Below, in pieces: positions 12,932-31,201 of a DNA stretch of 64,000 nt. The position numbers and the translations under genes are program-made. The notes beneath the pieces were generated by a model. It was not told the origin of the DNA, searched no databases, and saw only the letters and a list, made by a program, of their open reading frames with translations. The DNA is from Shinella yambaruensis. Lineage in GTDB: Bacteria > Pseudomonadota > Alphaproteobacteria > Rhizobiales > Rhizobiaceae. The DNA lies in the NCBI RefSeq assembly GCF_022899355.1, contig NZ_JALJCK010000009.1, positions 124,001-188,000 of the forward strand, read 5' to 3'. The number at the start of each line of letters is the position of its first letter. The first letter of the stretch is position 1.

Positions 12932-14419
12932 CTATTGGTCCACCCCGCGCACCATCATCAGAAGCCTTTCAAACTCGGCATTATCGCTGGCACCTTTCCA
13001 GAAATTGATAAATCGGCAAACAACCTGAATGTTGTCGATCTCGTAATGTCGACTGCTATCAATCCGGTCCGCTGAGGGAAGCAGGTTAGGGTCGGCGTCC
13101 GATCCGTGTGCGTGCATTGTAAGGCCGGTCAAGTTGCACTTGCCCTGCTGAAGCTCCAGCCTCGACCTGATAAGTTCATCAAGTTTAGAAGCGTCCATCA
13201 GCAATTGCTTGTCCTTTACTACACGCTCGACAATCTGTCCGTTGGAGTTGCGCACGGTGTTAAGGATCGACATTCTCATCTCGATGATAGAGCGCTCCCA
13301 TCCCCCGACAATCCTTCCATCGCTGCTTCGATTCGCAGGGTTGGAAATTACGCCTTCCGCTTCGAGCTTCATTAGCGTCGTGAAAATCCAGCAGAAGGAA
13401 TGAGCATCGACAAGGCGAATGTTATTCAGGCCGATGGACGCTTCGATCAGCGGACGCAATGCGGCGAGGGTCTGATTGTAGGTCGAATAATTCTTCCAAC
13501 TACATTGGCGCAGTGTAGAGAAATCGATGCCTAGCGCACGAAAGGCGCGGTCGAAGCCGGTCGGCTGGATCGGCATGAACCGATCCATGTCCTTTAGGAA
13601 ATAGAAATACGCAAGGAGCGGATACTTGCCGCCGGTTAACTCGCTCAAACGATCGAACGTTGAGCCCTCATCGGCGCCGCCGTGAAAGAGGCCAAACAGA
13701 AACCCCTCAAGTTCGCGACGCAGCTTGGGGTTCGACGCAGCCTCCAGCAAAGCTCGGTGATCCCGGTTGGCATGGCCGTAACGGTTCTGCCAGAACACGA
13801 GGTTGTTGGTGAGGTTACTCCGGCTGTCCTGAATTTCGATAGCTTCGATCATTCGGTTCAGGATCGTTCCCGAACCAATTTCGGCTTCCGACCAGTCGTG
13901 GATGCGAAGCAGGCCAAGCGCATGGTCGCGTAGACGCGGCTTATAGTTCTCCCAGGCGGCGGCAAGCCCTTCGTGGAAGCTGTTGAAGGCATGGCCGGAC
14001 CTTGCCGTGATGAGCGCCTGGAAGCGCGCGAAGGCTTCGCGGAAAGCGCGCGGATCAATGGCGGCAGCGCCGGTGATGGCGCGGGGCGCGCTACCGGGAT
14101 CGGCATACCAGCCCAGAAACCTGTTCAGCGCGCCGGGACTATCGACTTCGACGCGCAGCGTTGTCGGCGCGCGAAGCGGCAGAAGTGGCCCGTTGATGTT
14201 CGAATTGCCATTCGAAGCGTTGTCCATCAGGCGTACGCCGTCGAGGGGCGGCGGTGGCGGCGGCTGGAACCAGATGCGCGTCTCGGTGGCCTCGCGATGA
14301 ATAGCGAGAACCTTGCCTGCTGGCGTCTTGAACCCGACCACATAGTCGGTGGGCGGCTTGGCCGGTTCGCCAAACTTTGACTTGAGTATCGCTTCCGCTT
14401 GGGAGACGTTGAGCGCCAT
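12932..14419 (-). CDS. Restriction-operon-associated protein with C-terminal HNH-like module
   Basis: A 495-residue protein of unknown function, last gene of the restriction operon. The ATG at 14419 has GGGAG upstream and lies 20 bases after the hsdS stop; a TTG at 14434 would add 5 residues. Near the N-terminus is a proline run (FQPPPPPPLDGVRL). Residues from about 130 to 420 are helical with no family I recognise. The last 75 residues look like an HNH-type nuclease core: GKCNLTG, then HAHGSDAD, then PSADRID, then NIQVVCRFINFWK. This resembles HNH modules that use Cys/His and Asn to bind zinc and metal, but the classical HNH residues cannot be assigned with certainty. It may be an accessory restriction nuclease; this is inferred from the motif and operon position. 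Confidence 0.7.
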   Translation of the reverse strand: MALNVSQAEAILKSKFGEPAKPPTDYVVGFKTPAGKVLAIHREATETRIWFQPPPPPPLDGVRLMDNASNGNSNINGPLLPLRAPTTLRVEVDSPGALNRFLGWYADPGSAPRAITGAAAIDPRAFREAFARFQALITARSGHAFNSFHEGLAAAWENYKPRLRDHALGLLRIHDWSEAEIGSGTILNRMIEAIEIQDSRSNLTNNLVFWQNRYGHANRDHRALLEAASNPKLRRELEGFLFGLFHGGADEGSTFDRLSELTGGKYPLLAYFYFLKDMDRFMPIQPTGFDRAFRALGIDFSTLRQCSWKNYSTYNQTLAALRPLIEASIGLNNIRLVDAHSFCWIFTTLMKLEAEGVISNPANRSSDGRIVGGWERSIIEMRMSILNTVRNSNGQIVERVVKDKQLLMDASKLDELIRSRLELQQGKCNLTGLTMHAHGSDADPNLLPSADRIDSSRHYEIDNIQVVCRFINFWKGASDNAEFERLLMMVRGVDQ

Positions 14420-14439
14420 TCCAGAATCTCCCAACTGGC

Positions 14440-16821: not shown

Positions 16822-18272
16822 CAGGCCAGTGCCTCAGCCAGGATCGCCTTCAACTGGTCGCGATAGCCTGCCGTCTCGGCCTCGGCGCGGGCAAGGTCGG
16901 CCAGCAGCGTTTCCGGGTCGCCGTGATCGTCTGCAACGCTGTGCGGATTCTTGATGTCGAGATTGTAGCCGCGCGCCTTCACCTCCTCGATGGTGACGCG
17001 CCACGCCTGCGGGGTCTCCTCGCGGCCCTTGCGCTCCTTGCCGCCCCACCAGTCGATGCAGCCCTGGAAATGCTCCAGCCGGATCGGCTTGGTCATGGAA
17101 TAGGCTTTCTGGCCCTCGGGCACGCGATGCTCATAGAACCAGATGTCCTTGGTCGGCGCGCCCTTCTCGAAGAAAAGCAGGTTGGTGCCGATCGAGGCAT
17201 AGGGCTTGAACACGGAATTGGGCAGGCGAACGACGGTGTGGAGGTTGCACTCCTCCATCAAATGTTCCTTGAGCCGCGTTTTGATGCCTTCGCCGAACAG
17301 CGTGCCGTCCGGCAACACCACGGCGGCGCGCCCATCGGTTTTGAGCAGGCGAACGATCAGCGCCAGGAACAGGTCGGCGGTTTCCTTGGTGCGGAAGGTC
17401 GGGAAATTGTTCTCGATGCCATCTTCCTCCTTACCACCGAAGGGTGGATTGGTGACGACGATATCGACGCGCTCATCCTTGCTCCATGAAATCAGCGGCC
17501 GGGCCAGCGTATTGTCGTGGCGCACGAAGCTCGGGTCCTCGATGCCGTGCAGCAGCATGTTGGTGACGCACAGCATGTGGGGAAGCTGCTTCTTCTCCAC
17601 GGCGCGCAGAGCGCCCTGCATCGACTCGCGTTGTTTCGGCGTGCGGACGTAGTTCGCCTCCATGTGATTGATTGCGCAGGACAGAAAGCCGCCCGTGCCG
17701 CAGGCGGGATCGAACAGGATTTCGCCCGGATGCGGATCGATGCGATCGACCATAAAGGCGGTCACGGCGCGCGGCGTATAGAACTCGCCCGCGTTGCCGG
17801 CCGACTGCAGACTGTTGAGCAGTTGCTCATAGAACTCACCGAAGTGCCGGCGTTCGTCGAGGTTATTGAAGTCGATTTCGTCGATCTTGTTGATGACTTG
17901 GCGGATCAGGTGCCCTGACTTCATGTAGTTGAAGGCGTCCTCGAATAGGTCGCGCACCACACGGCGGCGGTCGCCTGGTTGCCCGGTCAGCTGAAGGCTT
18001 TTCAGTGCAGGAAACAACTCCCCGTTTACGAAGGCCAATAGCGCGTCGCCAGTCATGCCTTCGGGGTCCGCTGCCCAACTCCGCCACTGGAATTTCTCCG
18101 GAATCGGCGAGCGATAGCCGCTCCTCGTCAGTTCAAGTTCCTGATCCTGATCGTCGATGATCTTGAGGAAAAACATCCAGCACAACTGGCTGATGCGCTG
18201 CGCATCGCCATCGACCCCAGAATCCTGGCGCATGATGTCCTGAATGGATTTTACGGTTGTTCGGACGATCAT
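16821..18272 (-). CDS. hsdM: Type I restriction-modification DNA methyltransferase subunit HsdM
   Basis: N6-adenine methyltransferase that protects host DNA and is required for restriction. It has 483 residues, typical length. An N-terminal helical domain (SIQDIMRQDSGVDGDAQRIS) is followed by the SAM-binding motif DPACGTGGFL near residue 187 and the catalytic NPPFGG near 272. The C-terminal part holds the usual AVVLPDGTLFGEG strand. The start overlaps the preceding gene by 4 bases (ATGA), and the stop overlaps the hsdS start. All key motifs are intact, so it is predicted to be active. Confidence 0.96.
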   Translation of the reverse strand: MIVRTTVKSIQDIMRQDSGVDGDAQRISQLCWMFFLKIIDDQDQELELTRSGYRSPIPEKFQWRSWAADPEGMTGDALLAFVNGELFPALKSLQLTGQPGDRRRVVRDLFEDAFNYMKSGHLIRQVINKIDEIDFNNLDERRHFGEFYEQLLNSLQSAGNAGEFYTPRAVTAFMVDRIDPHPGEILFDPACGTGGFLSCAINHMEANYVRTPKQRESMQGALRAVEKKQLPHMLCVTNMLLHGIEDPSFVRHDNTLARPLISWSKDERVDIVVTNPPFGGKEEDGIENNFPTFRTKETADLFLALIVRLLKTDGRAAVVLPDGTLFGEGIKTRLKEHLMEECNLHTVVRLPNSVFKPYASIGTNLLFFEKGAPTKDIWFYEHRVPEGQKAYSMTKPIRLEHFQGCIDWWGGKERKGREETPQAWRVTIEEVKARGYNLDIKNPHSVADDHGDPETLLADLARAEAETAGYRDQLKAILAEALA

Positions 18273-19006
18273 GATTTTGGACCTGCTTCAAGATTTCCAT
18301 TCCGCCAAAGCCTAAAACTGACCGCGCCTAGGAGGTCGTCACGGGCATGGTTGAAGGCTACTTTGGTGGAGTACGAGGCGAGGAGACGTTCGCTCAGGTA
18401 CGTTTGCGTGAATAAGGACGCGACGCATCCATGCACAGAGTGGAATGGCGCAATAAATTCGGACGCGCACGGCGATGCCGAAAATACCTTGCCAAACTCC
18501 GCTTTCCCTGTTTGACAACCTAGGCTGATGAATTCCTTCGCCTTTGGGTTAGGAGCACTAAAGATTTCAGCCAACCGCGCGGGTGCAACATTGTCATTGC
18601 CGAACAAGAAGCCCCCCGGGTCACCGTGTCCAACGAGCACTACCTGTTCGCACATGCCGTGAAGTGTTCCCCACAAAGTCATAAGTTCCGCTTCGGTGCG
18701 GAGTTCGATAAGGCGAACCGAATCTCCCGGTAGCAGCATCCTGCAATAGTGCAGCACGGATTTGGCAAGCGGGTCCAAAAGTCCGTCTTCGTTGAAGTCG
18801 CCAATCCGGACTATCAAAACGCCGAAGCTTGTAGCGACCTTCGAGGTAGCGATCAGCTCGGAGAGCCCGCCACCCGGTTGGTCGACTTGAACCGATCGAT
18901 TCGTCCTAGCTCGAACAGTCGTGCGATAGAACGGCGAGATATCGTCATCTTTCAGCCCGAGCAGCGAACGCCGCACATAGACATCGTCGCCGATTTGCAG
19001 CGGCAT
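18269..19006 (-). CDS. Caspase/CHAT-like cysteine peptidase inside restriction operon
   Basis: A 245-residue protein not normally part of type I restriction systems. Residues 1-57 look like a small beta-barrel (IGDDVYVRRSLLGLKDDD). From residue 61 the layout fits the caspase (clan CD) fold: strand FGVLIVRIGD, a helix, strand DSVRLIEL, then strand QVVLVGHG with His127. After 37 residues comes strand FISLGCQTG with Cys164, then FIAPFHSVHG and a helix SLFTQTYLSERLL. The GHG...CxTG dyad and its spacing match caspase and CHAT proteases. No homologue is known to me by name. It is translationally coupled on both sides (TGATG with hsdR, ATGA with hsdM), so it should be made with the restriction complex. 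The fold call is an inference from motifs. Confidence 0.7.
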   Translation of the reverse strand: MPLQIGDDVYVRRSLLGLKDDDISPFYRTTVRARTNRSVQVDQPGGGLSELIATSKVATSFGVLIVRIGDFNEDGLLDPLAKSVLHYCRMLLPGDSVRLIELRTEAELMTLWGTLHGMCEQVVLVGHGDPGGFLFGNDNVAPARLAEIFSAPNPKAKEFISLGCQTGKAEFGKVFSASPCASEFIAPFHSVHGCVASLFTQTYLSERLLASYSTKVAFNHARDDLLGAVSFRLWRNGNLEAGPKS

Positions 19007-21438
19007 CAGGCGGTCTCCTGATAGAGCTCATCCTGCATCTCGTGGACGGCTTTTTCGAAACCCGCCTTGCCGCCGAACGCCTTGATGAGTTGCACGACGC
19101 TGCCCATCGCAGTGAAGGGCGTCACTTTTAGCACGTTGGCGTCGTCGAGGTTGAGCACGCCCTCGTCGAGGTATTTCTCCAGAAGCGCATCGAGCACGGC
19201 ACGGGCCTGCGGCCCATATTTGGTGAACACGTCACGCTTCCTGACGTTCTCGGCCCGCTCGCGGCGGGTAAGCGGCTTCTTGTCGAAGGCGACGTGGCAG
19301 ATCAGATCGAAGGGATCGAGATTCTTGCCGAGTTCGTCCGCCACGGCGTCGAGCGCCAGGCCCTCGGCCTCCAGCTCCTCGATGATCGCCTGCTTGCGCT
19401 CGGCCGATTTCCAGCGCTTCAAGAAGTCGTCGAGACTGGCGAAGCGCTTCCTCAGCGCCGTCTTGGTGAAATCCCGCAGGCTTTCGGTGACGAGCTTGCC
19501 GTTCTCGTCGAGATATTCGACGCGCTCGGCCAGGATACGGGCACCGACGCCATCGACATAAATCTTTCGGATCGGCCCGCCCGTCGGCAAAGGCAGGCCC
19601 GGCTGATCGACAATAGTTTCGCCTGGTGGCGGCTCGAACGTCGCTTGCTCGTCCTCCTCGAAACCATCGGGCGGCGTGACTGGATCGTCTTCGGCGGGTT
19701 CGTAAACCTGCACGGGATCACCGTCGAAATCCGGGTCGGCGAAATGGCTGGTCGCGCCGCGAAAGTCGATCAACGTGAAGTAGAATTTCTTGCTGTCCTC
19801 GTGAACGCGGGTGCCGCGCCCGACGATCTGCTTGAATTCGGTCATCGAGCCCACCGCGCGGTCGAGCACGATCAGCCGGCAGGTCTGCGCATCGACGCCT
19901 GTTGAAAGGAGGCGCGAGGTCGTCACCAGCACGGGATATTTCGATTCCGGGTCGATGAAGTTGCCGAGTTGGTCCTGGCCTTCCTTGTCGCTGCCGGTGA
20001 TGCGCATGACGTAACGCTGGTTTTCGGCGACCAGATCGGCGTTTTCGTTGACGAGCGCGTGCCGCATCCGAGCGGCGTGTTCCTCATCGACGCAGAACAC
20101 GATGGTTTTCTGGAAGCGGTCGCCACTTTCCTTCAGGAACTCGGTGATCTTCTTCGCGGTGAGCACCGTGCGGTCGTCGAGCACGAGGTTCCGGTCGAAG
20201 TCCTTGGCGTTGTAGATGCGGTCCTCGACCTCGTTGCCGTCGCGGTCGAGCTGGCCGAGTTCCGGCCGATAGCCTTCTACGTCGCGGTCGATGTGAACCT
20301 TCACCACCTTATAGGGCGCAAGGAAGCCGTCGCTGATCCCCTGCTTCAGCGAATAGGTGAAAACCGGCTCGCCGAAATAGTCGGTGTTGGAGACGTATTC
20401 GGTTTCCTTCGGCGTGGCGGTGAGGCCGATCTGCGTGGCGCGGGAAAAATGCGTGAGGATTTCACGCCAGGCGGAATCCTCGGCAGCACTGCCGCGATGG
20501 CACTCATCGATGACGATCAGGTCGAAGAAGCCGGGCGAGAACTCCTTGTAGAGCTTCTGCCGTTCCTCCGGGCCGGTGATCGCCTGATAGAGCCCGAGAT
20601 AAACCTCGAAGGCAGTGTCGATGCGCCGCTTTTGATCGAGTGCTAGGGTTAGGTCAACCTTGCTGCCGTCCTGCCGCTCGATGGTCTTGGCGTTGGTCGA
20701 AAGTTTCGCCATAGCCGCACCGAACGGGCGGAAATCGTTGATCATTGTCTGGTCGATCAGCACGTTTCGATCGGCGAGGAACAGGATGCGCTTCTTACGG
20801 CCCGCCTTCCACAGCCGCCAGATGATCTGGAACGCTGTGTAAGTCTTGCCGGTGCCGGTCGCCATCACCAACAGCACGCGGTCGCGGCCCTTGGCGATGG
20901 CCTCGATTGCGGCATTGACGGCGTTCACCTGATAATAGCGCGGGGTCTTGCCGCTGCCGTCGTCGAAATAGTCCTCAAGCACCATCTGCTCGGCTTGCGC
21001 GTCGAGGCCCTTCCAGGCGCGATAGCGCGTCCATAGATCGACAGGCGACGGGAAGGCGTCGAGGCCGAGGTTTGTTTCGATCGGAACACTGCGCCCGGTG
21101 CGGTCGTGGAATACGAAGCCGTCGCCGTTCGAGGAAAACACAAAGGGGATGTTGAGCGTTGCCGCGTAGTCGAGGCCCTGCTGGATGCCGTGGCCAACCG
21201 AATGATTGTTGTCCTTGGCCTCGATCAGCGCGACCGGGATATTCGGCTTGTAATAGAGAACGAAGTCGGCCTTCTTGGCCTTACCGCGCGTCACCAGCTT
21301 GCCGCGCACAATGATCCGGCCCTTGGTGAAAAAGACCTCCTCCCGAACCTGCACCATTTCATCCCAGCCGGCGCGCTTGATGGCCGGCAGGATGAACTTC
21401 GTGCAGATGTCGCGTTCGGTTAGTGCTCGCTTGTCCAT
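19006..21438 (-). CDS. hsdR: Type I restriction endonuclease subunit HsdR
   Basis: Motor and nuclease subunit that translocates and cuts unmodified DNA. It has 810 residues. The N-terminal PD-(D/E)xK nuclease shows Asp58 (KKADFVLYY), then Glu73-Ala-Lys75 (ALIEAKDN). Helicase motifs follow: Walker A MATGTGKTYTAF near 190, DECH (VIDECHRGSA) near 308, GLTATP, and motif VI QIVGRGTR. A C-terminal helical domain precedes the stop and is the likely HsdM/S docking part. It is the first gene of the five-gene operon; its 3' end overlaps the caspase-like gene by one base (TGATG). All motifs are intact. Confidence 0.96.
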   Translation of the reverse strand: MDKRALTERDICTKFILPAIKRAGWDEMVQVREEVFFTKGRIIVRGKLVTRGKAKKADFVLYYKPNIPVALIEAKDNNHSVGHGIQQGLDYAATLNIPFVFSSNGDGFVFHDRTGRSVPIETNLGLDAFPSPVDLWTRYRAWKGLDAQAEQMVLEDYFDDGSGKTPRYYQVNAVNAAIEAIAKGRDRVLLVMATGTGKTYTAFQIIWRLWKAGRKKRILFLADRNVLIDQTMINDFRPFGAAMAKLSTNAKTIERQDGSKVDLTLALDQKRRIDTAFEVYLGLYQAITGPEERQKLYKEFSPGFFDLIVIDECHRGSAAEDSAWREILTHFSRATQIGLTATPKETEYVSNTDYFGEPVFTYSLKQGISDGFLAPYKVVKVHIDRDVEGYRPELGQLDRDGNEVEDRIYNAKDFDRNLVLDDRTVLTAKKITEFLKESGDRFQKTIVFCVDEEHAARMRHALVNENADLVAENQRYVMRITGSDKEGQDQLGNFIDPESKYPVLVTTSRLLSTGVDAQTCRLIVLDRAVGSMTEFKQIVGRGTRVHEDSKKFYFTLIDFRGATSHFADPDFDGDPVQVYEPAEDDPVTPPDGFEEDEQATFEPPPGETIVDQPGLPLPTGGPIRKIYVDGVGARILAERVEYLDENGKLVTESLRDFTKTALRKRFASLDDFLKRWKSAERKQAIIEELEAEGLALDAVADELGKNLDPFDLICHVAFDKKPLTRRERAENVRKRDVFTKYGPQARAVLDALLEKYLDEGVLNLDDANVLKVTPFTAMGSVVQLIKAFGGKAGFEKAVHEMQDELYQETA

Positions 21439-22195: not shown

Positions 22196-22390
22196 ATGGA
22201 AAAATCTCCCGAGAAGTGTGTTAACATCAAAAACGCGGCTGAGATGGTCGGTGCCAAAGAATGGCACATTCGCCGCGCTGTTAAAGCCGGCCTCATCCCT
22301 CACTACCAGCCGTACAACAGCCGCCGCCTCGTAAAGCTGTCCGAGGTGGTGGCGTACATCGACTCCTGCCGTAAGGGAGGCGTCGAATGA
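22196..22390 (+). CDS. AlpA/excisionase-like small DNA-binding protein
   Basis: A 64-residue protein with a winged helix-turn-helix of MerR/AlpA/Xis style: VNIKNAAEMVGAKEWHIRRAVKAG followed by the wing YNSRRLVKLSEVVAYID. Proteins of this size and type act as excision factors (directing integrase) or as activators of element genes. The ATG at 22196 has a strong AAGGAGAG site, though this is inside a hairpin. It overlaps the next gene by 4 bases (ATGA). Its place just ahead of a replication protein and integrase supports a role in control of the element. Confidence 0.75.
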   Translation: MEKSPEKCVNIKNAAEMVGAKEWHIRRAVKAGLIPHYQPYNSRRLVKLSEVVAYIDSCRKGGVE

Positions 22391-24975
22391 ACTTCTCCCT
22401 TATTGCCTTCATCGTCGCTCTTTGGGGTGCCCGCTTCGCGGGTGCCCTCAAAATCTGGAGCAAGACGACCAAGAAGACCCTTTCCTACACGGCCGATGAC
22501 ATCGACCGGCTTGGTGAGGATGTCGCACGAAAGCGGCATGCCGAGGATCTCTATGTCGGGCTGAGCACGCAGCCCCACGATCTCGATTCCAGTGCCCGTG
22601 GATCCAACGATACGGCGATCACGCTTCCCGGCATCGTCGCCGACATCGATTTCGCATCGGCAAAGAACAGCGAAAAGAAGTATCCTCCGGACGCGGAGAC
22701 CGCTCTGGCGTTGATCAACACGTTCCCGGAGAAGCCGTTCTTCATTCAACATAGCGGCAACGGCCTCCATGTCGTCTACGCCTTCGACAAGGTGTTCGTG
22801 ATCGGCAACCGGGAGGATCGTCGTAGGGCGCAAGCGATCCTGAGACAGTTCGGCCGGCGGTTGATGGACCATTTCAAGGCGGCAGGCTACGAGATCGATA
22901 ACGTGTTCGATCTCGCGAGGGTTTTCCGCGTTCCGATGTCGTTCAACCACAAGTCAGGCACGCCGAAGCCGGTTGAGGTTATCGCGTTCAACCCGGAAAG
23001 CCGTCTTGATCTTGCCGCGCTGGAGCGGGCCGTGCCGCCCGAGGACGCCCCGGCACCGAAGCAGGTCGCCACGCGTCTTGCAGACCACGACATGATCGCC
23101 CACGATTGCCCTTGGTATGGCTATTACACGGGCGATGGTGCGGCGGCGGCGGACGAGCCGAACTGGTACGCGACGGCTTCGATCACGGCTCGCTGTAAGG
23201 ACGGGGAACGGATTTTCCACGACTACAGCGCACGCCATCCCGGCTACGACGGGCGCGAGGCTCGCAAGAAGCTTGAACGTGCCCGGACGGAAGCTGGCCC
23301 CCGGACCTGTGAGGCAGTGCATTCGGAACTCGGCAACGAGCAATTCTGTGAGGCTTGCCCGCATCGCGGAACGATCACCTCGCCCGTTCAGCTCGGCTAC
23401 GGCTATGATCCCGGCCCCTTCGGCCCGAGGCCGCTTGGTTTCACGAAGGAAGGCCATTTCGCTCTGCTCGACCCGGTACGGAAGATCGTCATACTGGCAT
23501 CGGCACAGCAGCTCCTTGCGGAACAATACCTGCTCGGGTTGGCCGAATCCGGCTTCTGGCGTCAACGGTTTCCGGGGAGGAAACCCGGATCGAGTAATTT
23601 CAGGGCTGCCGGTGAAGCCCTCATGAAAGCCTGCCGTCGCGCAGGACCGTTCAATCCCCAGCGCATCCGTGGTCGGGGCATTTGGCTTGAGAACGGCAAG
23701 GTTATCGTCAATCTCGGCCAGCCTGTAGAGAGTTCGAAGTTTCTTTACCTCTGCTTTGAAGGCATCGTACTGGATGACGGGCCGAGCTTTGACGCTAAGC
23801 GTCTCCGGGACCACCTTAAGCTCTACAATTGGCGAAACCCGCAGGATGCCGGCCTATTGTTTGGCTGGCTTGCGATGGCACCGATTTGCGGCGCGCTGGT
23901 GTGGCGACCTCATGCCTTCGTTTATGGGCCGGCCCGCTCGGGCAAGACCACCATCCACACGGTTGCCTCTGTCGTCCTGAGCCCGATTGTAGTGTCGGCC
24001 GATGGTCAAAGCACCGAGGCAGGCATCCGCCAGACCCTCGGTCCCGATAGTCTGCCGATCCTGCTGGATGAGTTTGAGAGCGACGACCAGAACGGTTCGA
24101 CACTGCGCAACATCCTCCGGCTTGCCCGTAGTGCTTCGTCGGCAGATACGCCGGTGCTCAAGGGAACGCCCGAGGGCAAGGCGATGAGCTTCAGCCTGCG
24201 GACCACCTTCCTGTTCAGCGCCATCAACCCGCGCGGCATGTCCCCGGCCGACCAGTCGCGCATCTCCATGTTCGAGTTGCTGATGCACGAGAACGACCGG
24301 GAAGTGGCAAAGCGCATCGCCGAGGACGAGGCATATTTCCGCACCACCGGCTCGGCATGGTGCTCTCACATGATCGGCCTCGCCCATCTCGTGCAACCGG
24401 CCGCCGATGCCGTCGATATTCACCTGAACGGGGATCGCCGGCATCGCCAGAACATGAGCATCCTAATTGGAGCGGGTTTCGTTGCACTGAACGGCAGGGT
24501 TCCCACCGACGAGGAAGCGCAGACGCTCGCCTCTGAATACGCCCCTGCAATTGAGCGACACGCCCTTGAAGTCCACCGCGACGACGCGCAGGAATGCCTT
24601 GACCACCTCCTGTCCCATGTCGTGGACGGTTATCCCCTCGGGCATTGGCTCGCCAGCCTCCGCGACGAGCAAAGCGGTCGCGGCAACGATTTTGCCAATG
24701 CCGAGCGGATCGTTGCGAACTACGGCATGCGGGTAAACGCGGAGGGCGAGGCCGCAGGCTTCTACGTCGCCAACGGCGCACCGGCGATGGAGGAAGTGTT
24801 CCGGGGCACGCCGTGGGCGCAGAAAGCATGGGAACGAGCCCTGCGCAAGTTGGAGGACGCTTTCATCCCGCCTAACCCGGTGCAGTTCAAGGTGCTGGGC
24901 AAGAAGCGGGCGATAGGAATGCCGCTCTCCTACCTGCCTGCCGAGCCGCTGTCCCTCGGCGCGGGGACCATTTGA
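22387..24975 (+). CDS. Phage/plasmid-type primase-helicase (PrimPol plus P-loop ATPase)
   Basis: An 862-residue replication protein of the island. The N-terminal half has an archaeo-eukaryotic primase pattern: DxD in GIVADIDFAS, a histidine motif HSGNGLHVVYAF, and a later acidic site (YEIDNVFDLARVFRVP). A cysteine-containing central part (CEACPHRG) may bind zinc. The C-terminal half is a P-loop ATPase of the DUF927/phage-helicase sort: Walker A YGPARSGKTT, Walker B ILLDEFESD and a sensor-type SAINPRGM. It should allow autonomous replication of the excised circle. It is translationally coupled to the AlpA-like gene. The primase assignment is from motif order. Confidence 0.8.
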   Translation: MNFSLIAFIVALWGARFAGALKIWSKTTKKTLSYTADDIDRLGEDVARKRHAEDLYVGLSTQPHDLDSSARGSNDTAITLPGIVADIDFASAKNSEKKYPPDAETALALINTFPEKPFFIQHSGNGLHVVYAFDKVFVIGNREDRRRAQAILRQFGRRLMDHFKAAGYEIDNVFDLARVFRVPMSFNHKSGTPKPVEVIAFNPESRLDLAALERAVPPEDAPAPKQVATRLADHDMIAHDCPWYGYYTGDGAAAADEPNWYATASITARCKDGERIFHDYSARHPGYDGREARKKLERARTEAGPRTCEAVHSELGNEQFCEACPHRGTITSPVQLGYGYDPGPFGPRPLGFTKEGHFALLDPVRKIVILASAQQLLAEQYLLGLAESGFWRQRFPGRKPGSSNFRAAGEALMKACRRAGPFNPQRIRGRGIWLENGKVIVNLGQPVESSKFLYLCFEGIVLDDGPSFDAKRLRDHLKLYNWRNPQDAGLLFGWLAMAPICGALVWRPHAFVYGPARSGKTTIHTVASVVLSPIVVSADGQSTEAGIRQTLGPDSLPILLDEFESDDQNGSTLRNILRLARSASSADTPVLKGTPEGKAMSFSLRTTFLFSAINPRGMSPADQSRISMFELLMHENDREVAKRIAEDEAYFRTTGSAWCSHMIGLAHLVQPAADAVDIHLNGDRRHRQNMSILIGAGFVALNGRVPTDEEAQTLASEYAPAIERHALEVHRDDAQECLDHLLSHVVDGYPLGHWLASLRDEQSGRGNDFANAERIVANYGMRVNAEGEAAGFYVANGAPAMEEVFRGTPWAQKAWERALRKLEDAFIPPNPVQFKVLGKKRAIGMPLSYLPAEPLSLGAGTI

Positions 24976-25079: not shown

Positions 25080-25297
25080 CGCCCGAGGAGCGTCTGGCCG
25101 TGGGGTCGGCCGTTGGAATGCTACTGCGACACTTCACCACCAACGGTCCCCGCGACGGCGATTTCAACCCGGATGACCGGGGAATCCGCACCATTTTGAG
25201 GCCCCGTCTCGTCGGGGCCTCACCCTCCAAACACATGGCAAGGTTACGTGGCTGGTTACAAATCCGGGCCGCAGAGCGGGCTTCCGGGCACAATTGA
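25028..25297 (+). CDS. Possible small protein between primase and integrase genes
   Basis: An 89-residue open frame starting at GTG with a GGAGGG site 7 bases upstream. It has a proline-rich beginning (PAARPPILVPHGRPSVPPEE), then LAVGSAVGMLLRHFTTNG, and a basic C-terminus. No domain was recognised. It overlaps the inverted repeat and hairpin in this gap, so it may be non-coding chance. Confidence 0.3.
   Translation: MPAARPPILVPHGRPSVPPEERLAVGSAVGMLLRHFTTNGPRDGDFNPDDRGIRTILRPRLVGASPSKHMARLRGWLQIRAAERASGHN
25198..25221. terminator. Perfect hairpin between primase and integrase genes
   Basis: A 9-bp stem GAGGCCCCG / CGGGGCCTC with a 6-base loop. No T-run follows on either strand, so it could be a terminator or an RNA structural element in front of the integrase gene. 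Confidence 0.45.
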
Positions 25298-25365
25298 CGA
25301 TTCATTGTGCGGGTTACAGCCGCCGTGTTTTCCTCGCCATTTTTTCATTTAGCAGCGAGAACACC

Positions 25366-26640
25366 ATGAAAGACAGTTTCAATATCTCCATCACCTCCAC
25401 AACACGCCGCCGCAAGCTGAGCAACGGCACCATGGCCGCCTATCCGCAATGGTACTGCGAGTATCGCGACCCCAAATCCGGCAAGCGTCGCCGCCGCGCC
25501 TTCAACAAGAAGAAGGACGCGGAGGCTTTCCGGAATGCCCTACTGGTGCAAGTCGCCGAAGGCTCCTACGTCGATGAGCGGACGGCCCCGACCGTCGCCA
25601 AGGCTCTTGACCACTGGCTCGCCAACAAGGAAGGGCAGGTCAAAGCCTCCACTCTGAAGGGCTATAAGGTCGTGGCGAACGGCGCGATCCGTGGCCCGCT
25701 GCTTATCGGCACCCGTCAGGAACGGGCCGATTACACCGAGAGCGGCGTCGCGCCGAAGGGCGCGCGCTTCCTCAAGCTCCTGGGCGACATCAAGCTCACC
25801 GAGCTGACGACGGCCGGCATTCGAATCTGGCATCGGACCATTGTCGAGCAATGCGGCAACTACACCGCCAACCGGGCAAAGTCGCACCTCAAGTCCATCC
25901 TAGCCTTGGCTGAAGAGGACTTCGGCATCCGCGCGCCGTCCATGCCGACCGGCCTCACGCGGGCTCGTCACAAGCCGAAGAAGGCCATCCTGACGCCGGA
26001 AGACATCGCCAAGCTCGTCGCCGCCGCCAAGATGGACGCCGAACACGGCATCTATTACGCTTTTCCCTTCCTCGCCGGCACGCGGCCGTCCGAGCAGCTT
26101 GGTCTGCTTTGGAGCGAGGTCGACTTCGACAAGAACATCATCCGCATCCGCCGCATTCAGGAGCGCGATGGCTCGCTGACCGAGATGACCAAGACGGAGG
26201 CCGGAACGCGCGACATTCCCATGGGCACGACGCTGCGCGAGATGCTGCTTGAATGGCGGCTCCGTTGCCCGAGGAAGGGCAAGGAGCTGCACCGGGTCTT
26301 TCCTGGTCCCGGTCGGCTTCAGGAATGGCCGAAGCTGCGCATCGGCGGCGGCGGGCCGCTGCTCTACCAAAACTTCCGCAAGCGTTATTGGGCTCCAGCC
26401 TTCAAGAAGCTCCGCCTTCCGTATGTGACGCCGCATTCCGCGCGACATTCGTTCATCTCAACGCTTCAGGCGCAGGGCATTGAGGTGGGCCTCGTCGCGC
26501 AGATCGCCGGCCATGCCAATCCGACCGTGACGCTTGGCCACTACACCCAGGCCGTACGCGGCGGCGCTGCTGCCGTGGCTGCACTGGAGCGGGCCTACGT
26601 GCCACGGGAGGCCGTACGCGGCAGCGCCGGACCGGCCTGA
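25366..26640 (+). CDS. int: Site-specific tyrosine recombinase (integrase)
   Basis: Catalyses integration and excision of the island by recombination at the tRNA-Gly site. It has 424 residues. An N-terminal arm-binding part (CEYRDPKSGKRRRRAF) and a core-binding SAM-like helical domain (TVAKALDHWLANK) precede the catalytic domain. The catalytic set is Arg240 (LAGTRPSEQLGLLW), Lys near 276, His357/Arg360 (PHSARHSF), His383 (AGHANPTVTL) and Tyr393 (GHYTQ). The ATG at 25366 is chosen; an upstream ATG at 25294 would add 24 non-conserved residues. The C-terminal tail contains two copies of a PxxAVRG-like segment from a DNA direct repeat. It is intact and predicted to be active. Confidence 0.95.
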   Translation: MKDSFNISITSTTRRRKLSNGTMAAYPQWYCEYRDPKSGKRRRRAFNKKKDAEAFRNALLVQVAEGSYVDERTAPTVAKALDHWLANKEGQVKASTLKGYKVVANGAIRGPLLIGTRQERADYTESGVAPKGARFLKLLGDIKLTELTTAGIRIWHRTIVEQCGNYTANRAKSHLKSILALAEEDFGIRAPSMPTGLTRARHKPKKAILTPEDIAKLVAAAKMDAEHGIYYAFPFLAGTRPSEQLGLLWSEVDFDKNIIRIRRIQERDGSLTEMTKTEAGTRDIPMGTTLREMLLEWRLRCPRKGKELHRVFPGPGRLQEWPKLRIGGGGPLLYQNFRKRYWAPAFKKLRLPYVTPHSARHSFISTLQAQGIEVGLVAQIAGHANPTVTLGHYTQAVRGGAAAVAALERAYVPREAVRGSAGPA

Positions 26641-31082: not shown

Positions 31083-31172
31083 CACAAAAGCCCCGGCGAA
31101 CCGAGGCTTTGAACCACTAGGAAGAATGGAGCGGGTGAAGCGATTCGAACGCTCGACCCCAACCTTGGCAAG
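31083..31172. repeat. Right island junction (attR): tRNA-Gly 3' half and terminator
   Basis: The counterpart of 12222-12311: 27 identical bases, 10 different, 53 identical. Identity ends at 31172, inside the anticodon-stem region of the tRNA, which is where crossover by tyrosine recombinases often happens. The intact tRNA therefore consists of a native 5' half and a 3' half brought by the element. Confidence 0.92.
31086..31109 (-). terminator. tRNA-Gly terminator
   Basis: Minus-strand stem AAGCCTCGG / CCGGGGCTT (one G-U) with a TTCG tetraloop and a T-rich end, 18 bases downstream of the tRNA CCA. It is duplicated at 12225-12248. Confidence 0.85.
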
Positions 31173-31201
31173 GTTGTGCTCTACCCCTGAGCTACACCCG
31201 C
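31127..31201 (-). tRNA. tRNA-Gly (anticodon GCC)
   Basis: 75 bases including encoded CCA. The acceptor stem is GCGGGTG / CACCCGC with discriminator T. The D-arm is GCTC...GAGC, the anticodon arm CAACC-TTGCCAA-GGTTG and the T-arm GAGCG-TTCGAAT-CGCTT (one G-U). All arms pair. It is the integration target of the island, and it stays complete because the element restores the 3' half. Confidence 0.97.

Follow-up and report, generated by a model that had tools for sequence, protein, structure and literature searches.

The window analysed here is a stretch of 64,000 nucleotides of Shinella yambaruensis (contig NZ_JALJCK010000009.1, positions 124,001 to 188,000). It contains a type I restriction-modification (R-M) operon in which a gene for a 245-residue putative cysteine peptidase of the caspase/CHAT fold, hereafter X, lies between hsdR and hsdM (Table 1). 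The operon combines an HsdR of family NF046051 with hsdM and hsdS, as a type I system of the EcoAI/FtnUII type does. The initial annotation, made from the sequence alone, had described a gene of this length at this place, joined to both neighbours by overlapping start and stop codons, and both statements hold: the end of hsdR and the start of X share TGATG (a 1-base overlap), and the end of X overlaps the start of hsdM by 4 bases (18269-18272). The stretch AGGAG, within the hsdR tail and 8 bases ahead of the ATG of X, may serve as its ribosome-binding site.

A chance open reading frame (ORF) as the origin of X was ruled out by shuffling and by homologues, the homologues being by far the stronger argument. 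In 2000 mononucleotide shuffles of the X stretch the longest open stretch had 231 codons and 245 was never reached, while 185 homologous proteins were found at E<=0.01 in a single-sequence search and 575 in a profile search. Promoter- and terminator-like sites were counted only at the level of the shuffles. The G+C content at third codon positions (GC3) of X is 0.596, against 0.811 for hsdR and 0.801 for hsdM, although a low value is not peculiar to X, as hsdS (0.677) and the 500-aa ORF beyond it (0.682) also lie below hsdR and hsdM.

Table 1. Features of the hsd operon, of X and of their surroundings (positions in the window)
Feature	Positions	Strand	Evidence
hsdR, EcoAI/FtnUII family, 810 aa	19006..21438	-	NCBIfam NF046051, 1159.8 bits, cut-off 550
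AGGAG, ribosome-binding-site-like	19015..19019	-	sequence; putative role
X, 245-aa putative cysteine peptidase of caspase/CHAT fold	18269..19006	-	ORF list, homologues, model, fold search, conservation
N-terminal small beta domain of X, residues ~1-58	18833..19006	-	strands of the structure model
Caspase/CHAT-fold domain of X, residues ~59-241	18284..18832	-	structure model and fold search
His127 codon (CAC), putative catalytic His	18626..18628	-	invariant in alignment
Cys164 codon (TGT), putative catalytic Cys	18515..18517	-	invariant in alignment
hsdM, 483 aa	16821..18272	-	PF02384 and PF12161 above cut-off
hsdS, 793 aa	14440..16821	-	PF01420 in two stretches; PADLOC Specificity_I
500-aa ORF, listed start TTG, 5 bases past hsdS, HNH/endonuclease VII-like C-terminus	12932..14434	-	PHROGs 3322, 1035, 3118
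Primase-like protein, next to hsd operon	22387-24975	+	PHROGs scan
Integrase, next to hsd operon	25294-26640	+	PHROGs scan
tRNA-Gly	31127-31201	-	

Fold and conserved residues of X

The two putative catalytic residues, His127 in VGHG and Cys164 in LGCQTG, are 37 residues apart, and the residues, the spacing and the preceding strands are as the initial annotation gave them. In an alignment of 161 rows (the window protein and all 160 relatives listed, out of the 185 and 575 found), every row (161/161) has His127, and Cys164 is present in each of the 160 rows that have a residue at that column (160/160; P0063, of 154 aa, is gapped), while the remaining His and Cys columns of the query are kept at 24-96%. 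Asp70, Glu73, Arg103 and Glu107 are likewise invariant, and, as a guess, the acids ending the first core strand may form part of a pocket that accepts a basic residue. Two smaller alignments were also made, one of the window protein with those 118 of the 120 listed proteins that have at least 195 aa and alignment A1 of the window protein with 63 of the 120.

The structure model has a caspase-type alpha/beta sheet after a small N-terminal beta domain (strands 8-12, 26-35 and 38-42), which had also been foreseen and which is less conserved than the rest, with a mean column entropy of 1.86 bits (residues 1-57) vs 1.50 (59-240). In the model, strand 119-126 precedes His127 and strand 157-161 precedes Cys164, which is the clan CD order. 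The absence of a caspase-like sheet, or homologues with freely varying His and Cys, had been named as evidence that would speak against this fold; structure prediction and fold search give such a sheet, and the two residues do not vary. Additionally, a bridge family of hypothetical proteins from Mesorhizobium and others (P0161 and its 44 matches; alignment A3, 27 of these 45 proteins) reaches X in a profile-profile comparison with E 7.9e-18, the His and Cys columns coinciding. Its members are shorter than X, mostly 185-217 aa, and the alignment covers only the part of X past the N-terminal domain. Some of them match CHAT, and one is named by its source ‘Peptidase family C25’. Because of the model and fold search, the bridge family and the invariant His and Cys, the predicted caspase/CHAT fold of clan CD is well supported, and X is a putative protease.

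X has no significant family in Pfam (DUF4679 at E 0.11, under its cut-off) or in NCBIfam, none at E<=0.01 in PHROGs and none at E<=1 in PADLOC 2.0.0 (5027 models), and sequence searches of solved structures gave best E values of 1.2, 0.77 and 1.4. CHAT is missing from the 13 Pfam families matched by any of 64 family members (E<=0.5). The weak matches among these members include Peptidase_C25 (3 members, best E 0.0079), C14 (2, 0.043) and DUF4347 (4, 0.0078), none of which is matched by the window protein itself. X is CHAT-like, and is not filed as a member of PF12770.

The variable hsdR-hsdM junction and the relatives of X

In the nearest HsdR relatives, at loci L054 (88-89% identical) and L037 (87%), the junction is empty. 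In L054 the hsdR stop is followed by ACC and ATGATCGTCCG (hsdM), the same flanks bracket X in the window, and the AGGAG that precedes hsdM in L054 stands before X in the window. The insertion is seamless, X being a single-gene cassette placed precisely where the hsdR stop adjoins the hsdM start.

The survey of junctions, which the initial annotation had proposed, covered 58 loci (L002, L026-L082; 13 of 40 plasmid matches fetched), of which 48 could be read after exclusion of L032-L036, L060, L067, L070 and L074 (hsdM unreadable) and of L076. In the latter, hsdR is in pieces and an annotated HNH gene stands ahead of hsdM. The 48 junctions comprise 38 empty ones, 2 with X (the window and L002), 2 with a papain-fold protein and 6 with other insertions; FRG, Mrr and SHOCT are among the cargo. 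X as a constant component of the operon is ruled out by the 38 empty junctions, and the junction is a variable slot. Neither this variability nor the difference in base composition between X and its neighbours hsdR and hsdM had been noticed in the initial annotation. In seven other single-gene junctions (L002, L027, L028, L039, L049, L055, L063) the GC3 of the cargo is below that of the computable flanks (all except hsdR of L002 and hsdM of L055), with a small gap in L055 (0.475 vs 0.527).

The papain-fold cargo is a 176-aa protein (L027:947-1477(-) and L039:942-1472(-)) with invariant Cys, His and Asp and a papain/C39-like model, whose fold match comes from VIA-align. Its distant relatives at L086-L090 have no adjoining hsd gene as judged by eye, and plasmid and viral searches found no further 176-aa slot protein; alignment A4 holds seven proteins, the weak match L091 being left out. 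An FRG-domain gene fills the junction of a Paracoccus plasmid (L049:7467-8315(+)), for which a search for relatives in plasmids recovered only the source record; this operon also has a NucS-domain gene between hsdM and hsdS. The junction protein of L028 (737-1486(-), 249 aa) matches phrog_23933, and its start looks cyclase-like by eye. The new finding is this slot, which accommodates two cargo proteins whose protease folds are unrelated.

The relatives of X were followed at 22 loci from genomes and viral contigs, some of which ended early at contig ends. Neighbouring genes were scanned for families at seven of them (L004, L005, L007, L013, L015, L016, L017), while the others were read by tblastn with the hsd genes of the window and by eye from ORFs. 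L002, from Armatimonadota (the listed relative P0049 fits it in source name and identity), has the order hsdR-X-hsdM-hsdS with the same TGATG join as the window. L015 has the order hsdM-hsdS-hsdR-X with a T1RH-like (HindI-type) R subunit and a 4-base overlap between hsdR and X, so that X overlaps hsdR in all three type I loci. In L004, X belongs to a DISARM-like module, where it is flanked by a DrmMI-like methyltransferase and a TPR-GreAB-PIN protein and comes after a DpdE/DrmD-like helicase, and in L017 it lies one gene past a GmrSD gene. Directly ahead of X in L013 is a gene annotated ThiF (the near copy L014 is alike by eye), and in L007 an E2-ThiF-JAB gene lies about 1.6 kb ahead of X; the vicinity of ubiquitin-like conjugation genes at two unrelated loci is a possible further defence association. 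Six loci have phage-like surroundings (L009, L019-L023; ORFs by eye or viral collection), and relatives occur in Gordonia phages about 3 kb from a serine integrase gene as well as in IMG/VR contigs. At the nine remaining loci no restriction gene was recognised, most of their neighbours lying outside the family scan. X is thus not tied to type I R-M, as its relatives occur also in another type I operon with a different gene order, in a DISARM-like module, in phages and alone.

Two copies look damaged, one frame-broken (L017:9001-9644(+), a Labilibaculum metagenome-assembled genome) and one with an internal stop (L007:9001-9735(+), Stenotrophomonas maltophilia EA1). Upstream of the Stutzerimonas relative lies a 1712-aa protein with weak AAA/NACHT-type matches under cut-off (L016:3454-8592(+)).

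In a tree of X (43 rows, with 21 listed proteins and without L017 and L018), the window and L002 fall in one clade of 15 rows with support 100/99. A genome from the same family as the window's has a protein identical to a Mesorhizobium protein, and the clade therefore probably spans two phyla. L015, a long row of unsure placement, falls outside this clade, which makes more than one encounter of X with type I systems probable. No X other than that of the window came up in searches of 385 class, 101 relative and 297 order genomes (the sets overlap and include its own genome), the second match, L025, belonging to the bridge family; a viral scan with sub-alignment A2 gave 14 pattern matches, none of which was confirmed.

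In the surroundings, the primase-like protein and the integrase adjoin the hsd operon, which therefore probably sits in an integrated element. The C-terminus of HsdS extends some 200 residues past its two specificity domains, and PADLOC PDLC03088 reaches residues 617-789 there. The 500-aa ORF, for which Pfam, PADLOC and NCBIfam give no family above cut-off, is possibly the last gene of the operon.

Possible roles of X

We propose, in a judgement as evenly poised as it can be, that X is a second-line protease effector in, and coupled to, the EcoAI-type restriction operon. The argument for coupling is one of architecture: X overlaps hsdR in each type I locus, both readable loci of its clade are hsdR-X-hsdM, and the association with restriction systems recurs. 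Having arrived as a single-gene cassette behind a Shine-Dalgarno-like stretch, X would probably be produced together with HsdR by translational coupling. It would most likely be kept latent, whether in the cell or by the restriction complex, and would cleave one or a few proteins and so halt growth once restriction is blocked, overwhelmed or fully engaged. EcoprrI and its PrrC follow this logic with a tRNase, where the present operon would use a protease. Of the initial annotation, the caspase/CHAT fold is supported, while its ideas on function (a suicidal second line of defence, or control of the HsdR level) stay at the level of proposals.

Several observations weigh against this proposal. 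Since the closest hsdR relatives lack X, HsdRMS does not need it, and since many relatives of X live outside R-M, X can exist without HsdRMS; tblastn found no type I neighbour at 20 of the 22 loci, and the readable hsdR-X-hsdM loci are two only. Beside X, no gene was recognised for a known substrate partner of the kind that Craspase has in Csx30, and the Pfam CHAT model PF12770 is not matched by X even at E<=1. In a tree of HsdR (44 rows, without hsdR below 50% identity, L074 and L076), at least 10 changes are required to account for the cargo labels, and shuffled labels do as well, a scatter which fits repeated exchange of single-gene cargo and in which no lasting attachment of X to its operon is visible.

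The same scatter favours a serious competitor, still well short of an even chance, namely that X acts autonomously as an anti-phage (or superinfection-exclusion) protease, nested as defence cargo, which carries a sensor of its own (the N-terminal beta domain, perhaps) and is functionally independent of HsdRMS. The relatives in Gordonia phages, in IMG/VR contigs and in places without recognised restriction genes agree with this, as do the unrelated cargo in the slot of related operons and the GC3 of X compared with that of hsdR and hsdM. However, an independent passenger would not lead us to expect the overlap with hsdR in every type I locus, both hsdR-X-hsdM forms in one well-supported clade, or an association with restriction systems that recurs (L002, L015, L004).

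Rather improbable, in our view, is that X acts as a private restriction-alleviation protease, in the role that ClpXP has for EcoKI and EcoAI, which cleaves or destabilises HsdR on entry to a new host or on under-methylated host DNA. In the parts of PMC12707154 drawn on here, ClpXP controls type IA/IB enzymes, including EcoAI, by acting on HsdR, and the place of X between hsdR and hsdM and a second, unrelated cysteine-protease fold at the same junction (L027, L039) would suit such a role. On the other hand, most junctions, including those of the nearest HsdR relatives, are empty, relatives of X occur without a nearby HsdR, and the FRG, Mrr and SHOCT cargo is not known as proteolytic. We therefore favour an effector over a regulator of the HsdR level, because of the relatives outside type I operons and the other defence-type cargo in the slot. 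Finally, caspase-fold pseudoenzymes exist and the activity of X is a putative one, but a dead or moonlighting scaffold or binding module is very improbable, as His127 and Cys164 would be expected to vary freely in a dead enzyme and are invariant in relatives down to about 39% identity.

A wider version can also be put forward, to which we give well under an even chance. The hsdR-hsdM junction of EcoAI-type operons would be an exchangeable effector slot with the restriction complex as common sensor; effectors encoded by one gene each and unrelated to one another would be swapped behind hsdR and would kill or arrest the cell on failure of restriction, a modular, protease-based form of the PrrC strategy. 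Two of them would be the putative cysteine proteases with unrelated folds, caspase/CHAT (the window and L002) and papain/C39 (L027 and L039). A caspase-fold protease made together with HsdR would link restriction to proteolytic cell death. The slot offers a simple rule for locating more such effectors, and exchanging the cargo within one operon would make it testable whether restriction complexes are general sensors for suicide effectors.

Comparison with known systems

It is already described that type I R-M operons can embed effectors, and those treated in the parts of PMC3874165, PMC12707154 and PMC3506569 drawn on here are toxin-like enzymes such as PrrC. The 2012 coupling hypothesis (PMC3506569) does not use the words ‘caspase’, ‘protease’ or ‘peptidase’ in its main text, and the 2025 review of R-M (PMC12707154) does not use ‘caspase’ in its own. 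Caspase-like peptidases are effectors in other bacterial conflict systems, according to the portion of PMC7159879 used. Among the matches listed from open-licence PMC text, titles and abstract starts do not describe a type I operon that contains a caspase/CHAT gene.

The SAVED-CHAT protease of filaments (PDB 8tl0) has about 478 residues, whereas X, its small N-terminal beta domain included, has 245. Of the five genes scanned at the X locus (Pfam, PADLOC, NCBIfam), none was recognised as a CRISPR or cyclic-nucleotide gene. TPR-CHAT/Csx29 of Craspase (type III-E CRISPR) is, like X, a CHAT-fold defence protease, and 7y84 and 8eey appear in the fold search of X. Craspase requires gRAMP and Csx30; X lacks the TPR part, and the same five genes include no recognised CRISPR gene. 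Borvo, tabulated as a CHAT-protease defence system in the part of PMC10952713 consulted, resembles X in its type of protease, while X matches no PADLOC model in a set whose inclusion of Borvo is unchecked.

PrrC of EcoprrI, which like X is encoded by one effector-like gene within a type I hsd operon (there of type IC), is the precedent for such an arrangement. However, PrrC is an ABC-NTPase tRNase, and its ABC-NTPase and anticodon-nuclease domains have no Pfam match in X, which has instead the predicted caspase fold of a putative protease and belongs to an EcoAI-type operon, where it follows hsdR and precedes hsdM.
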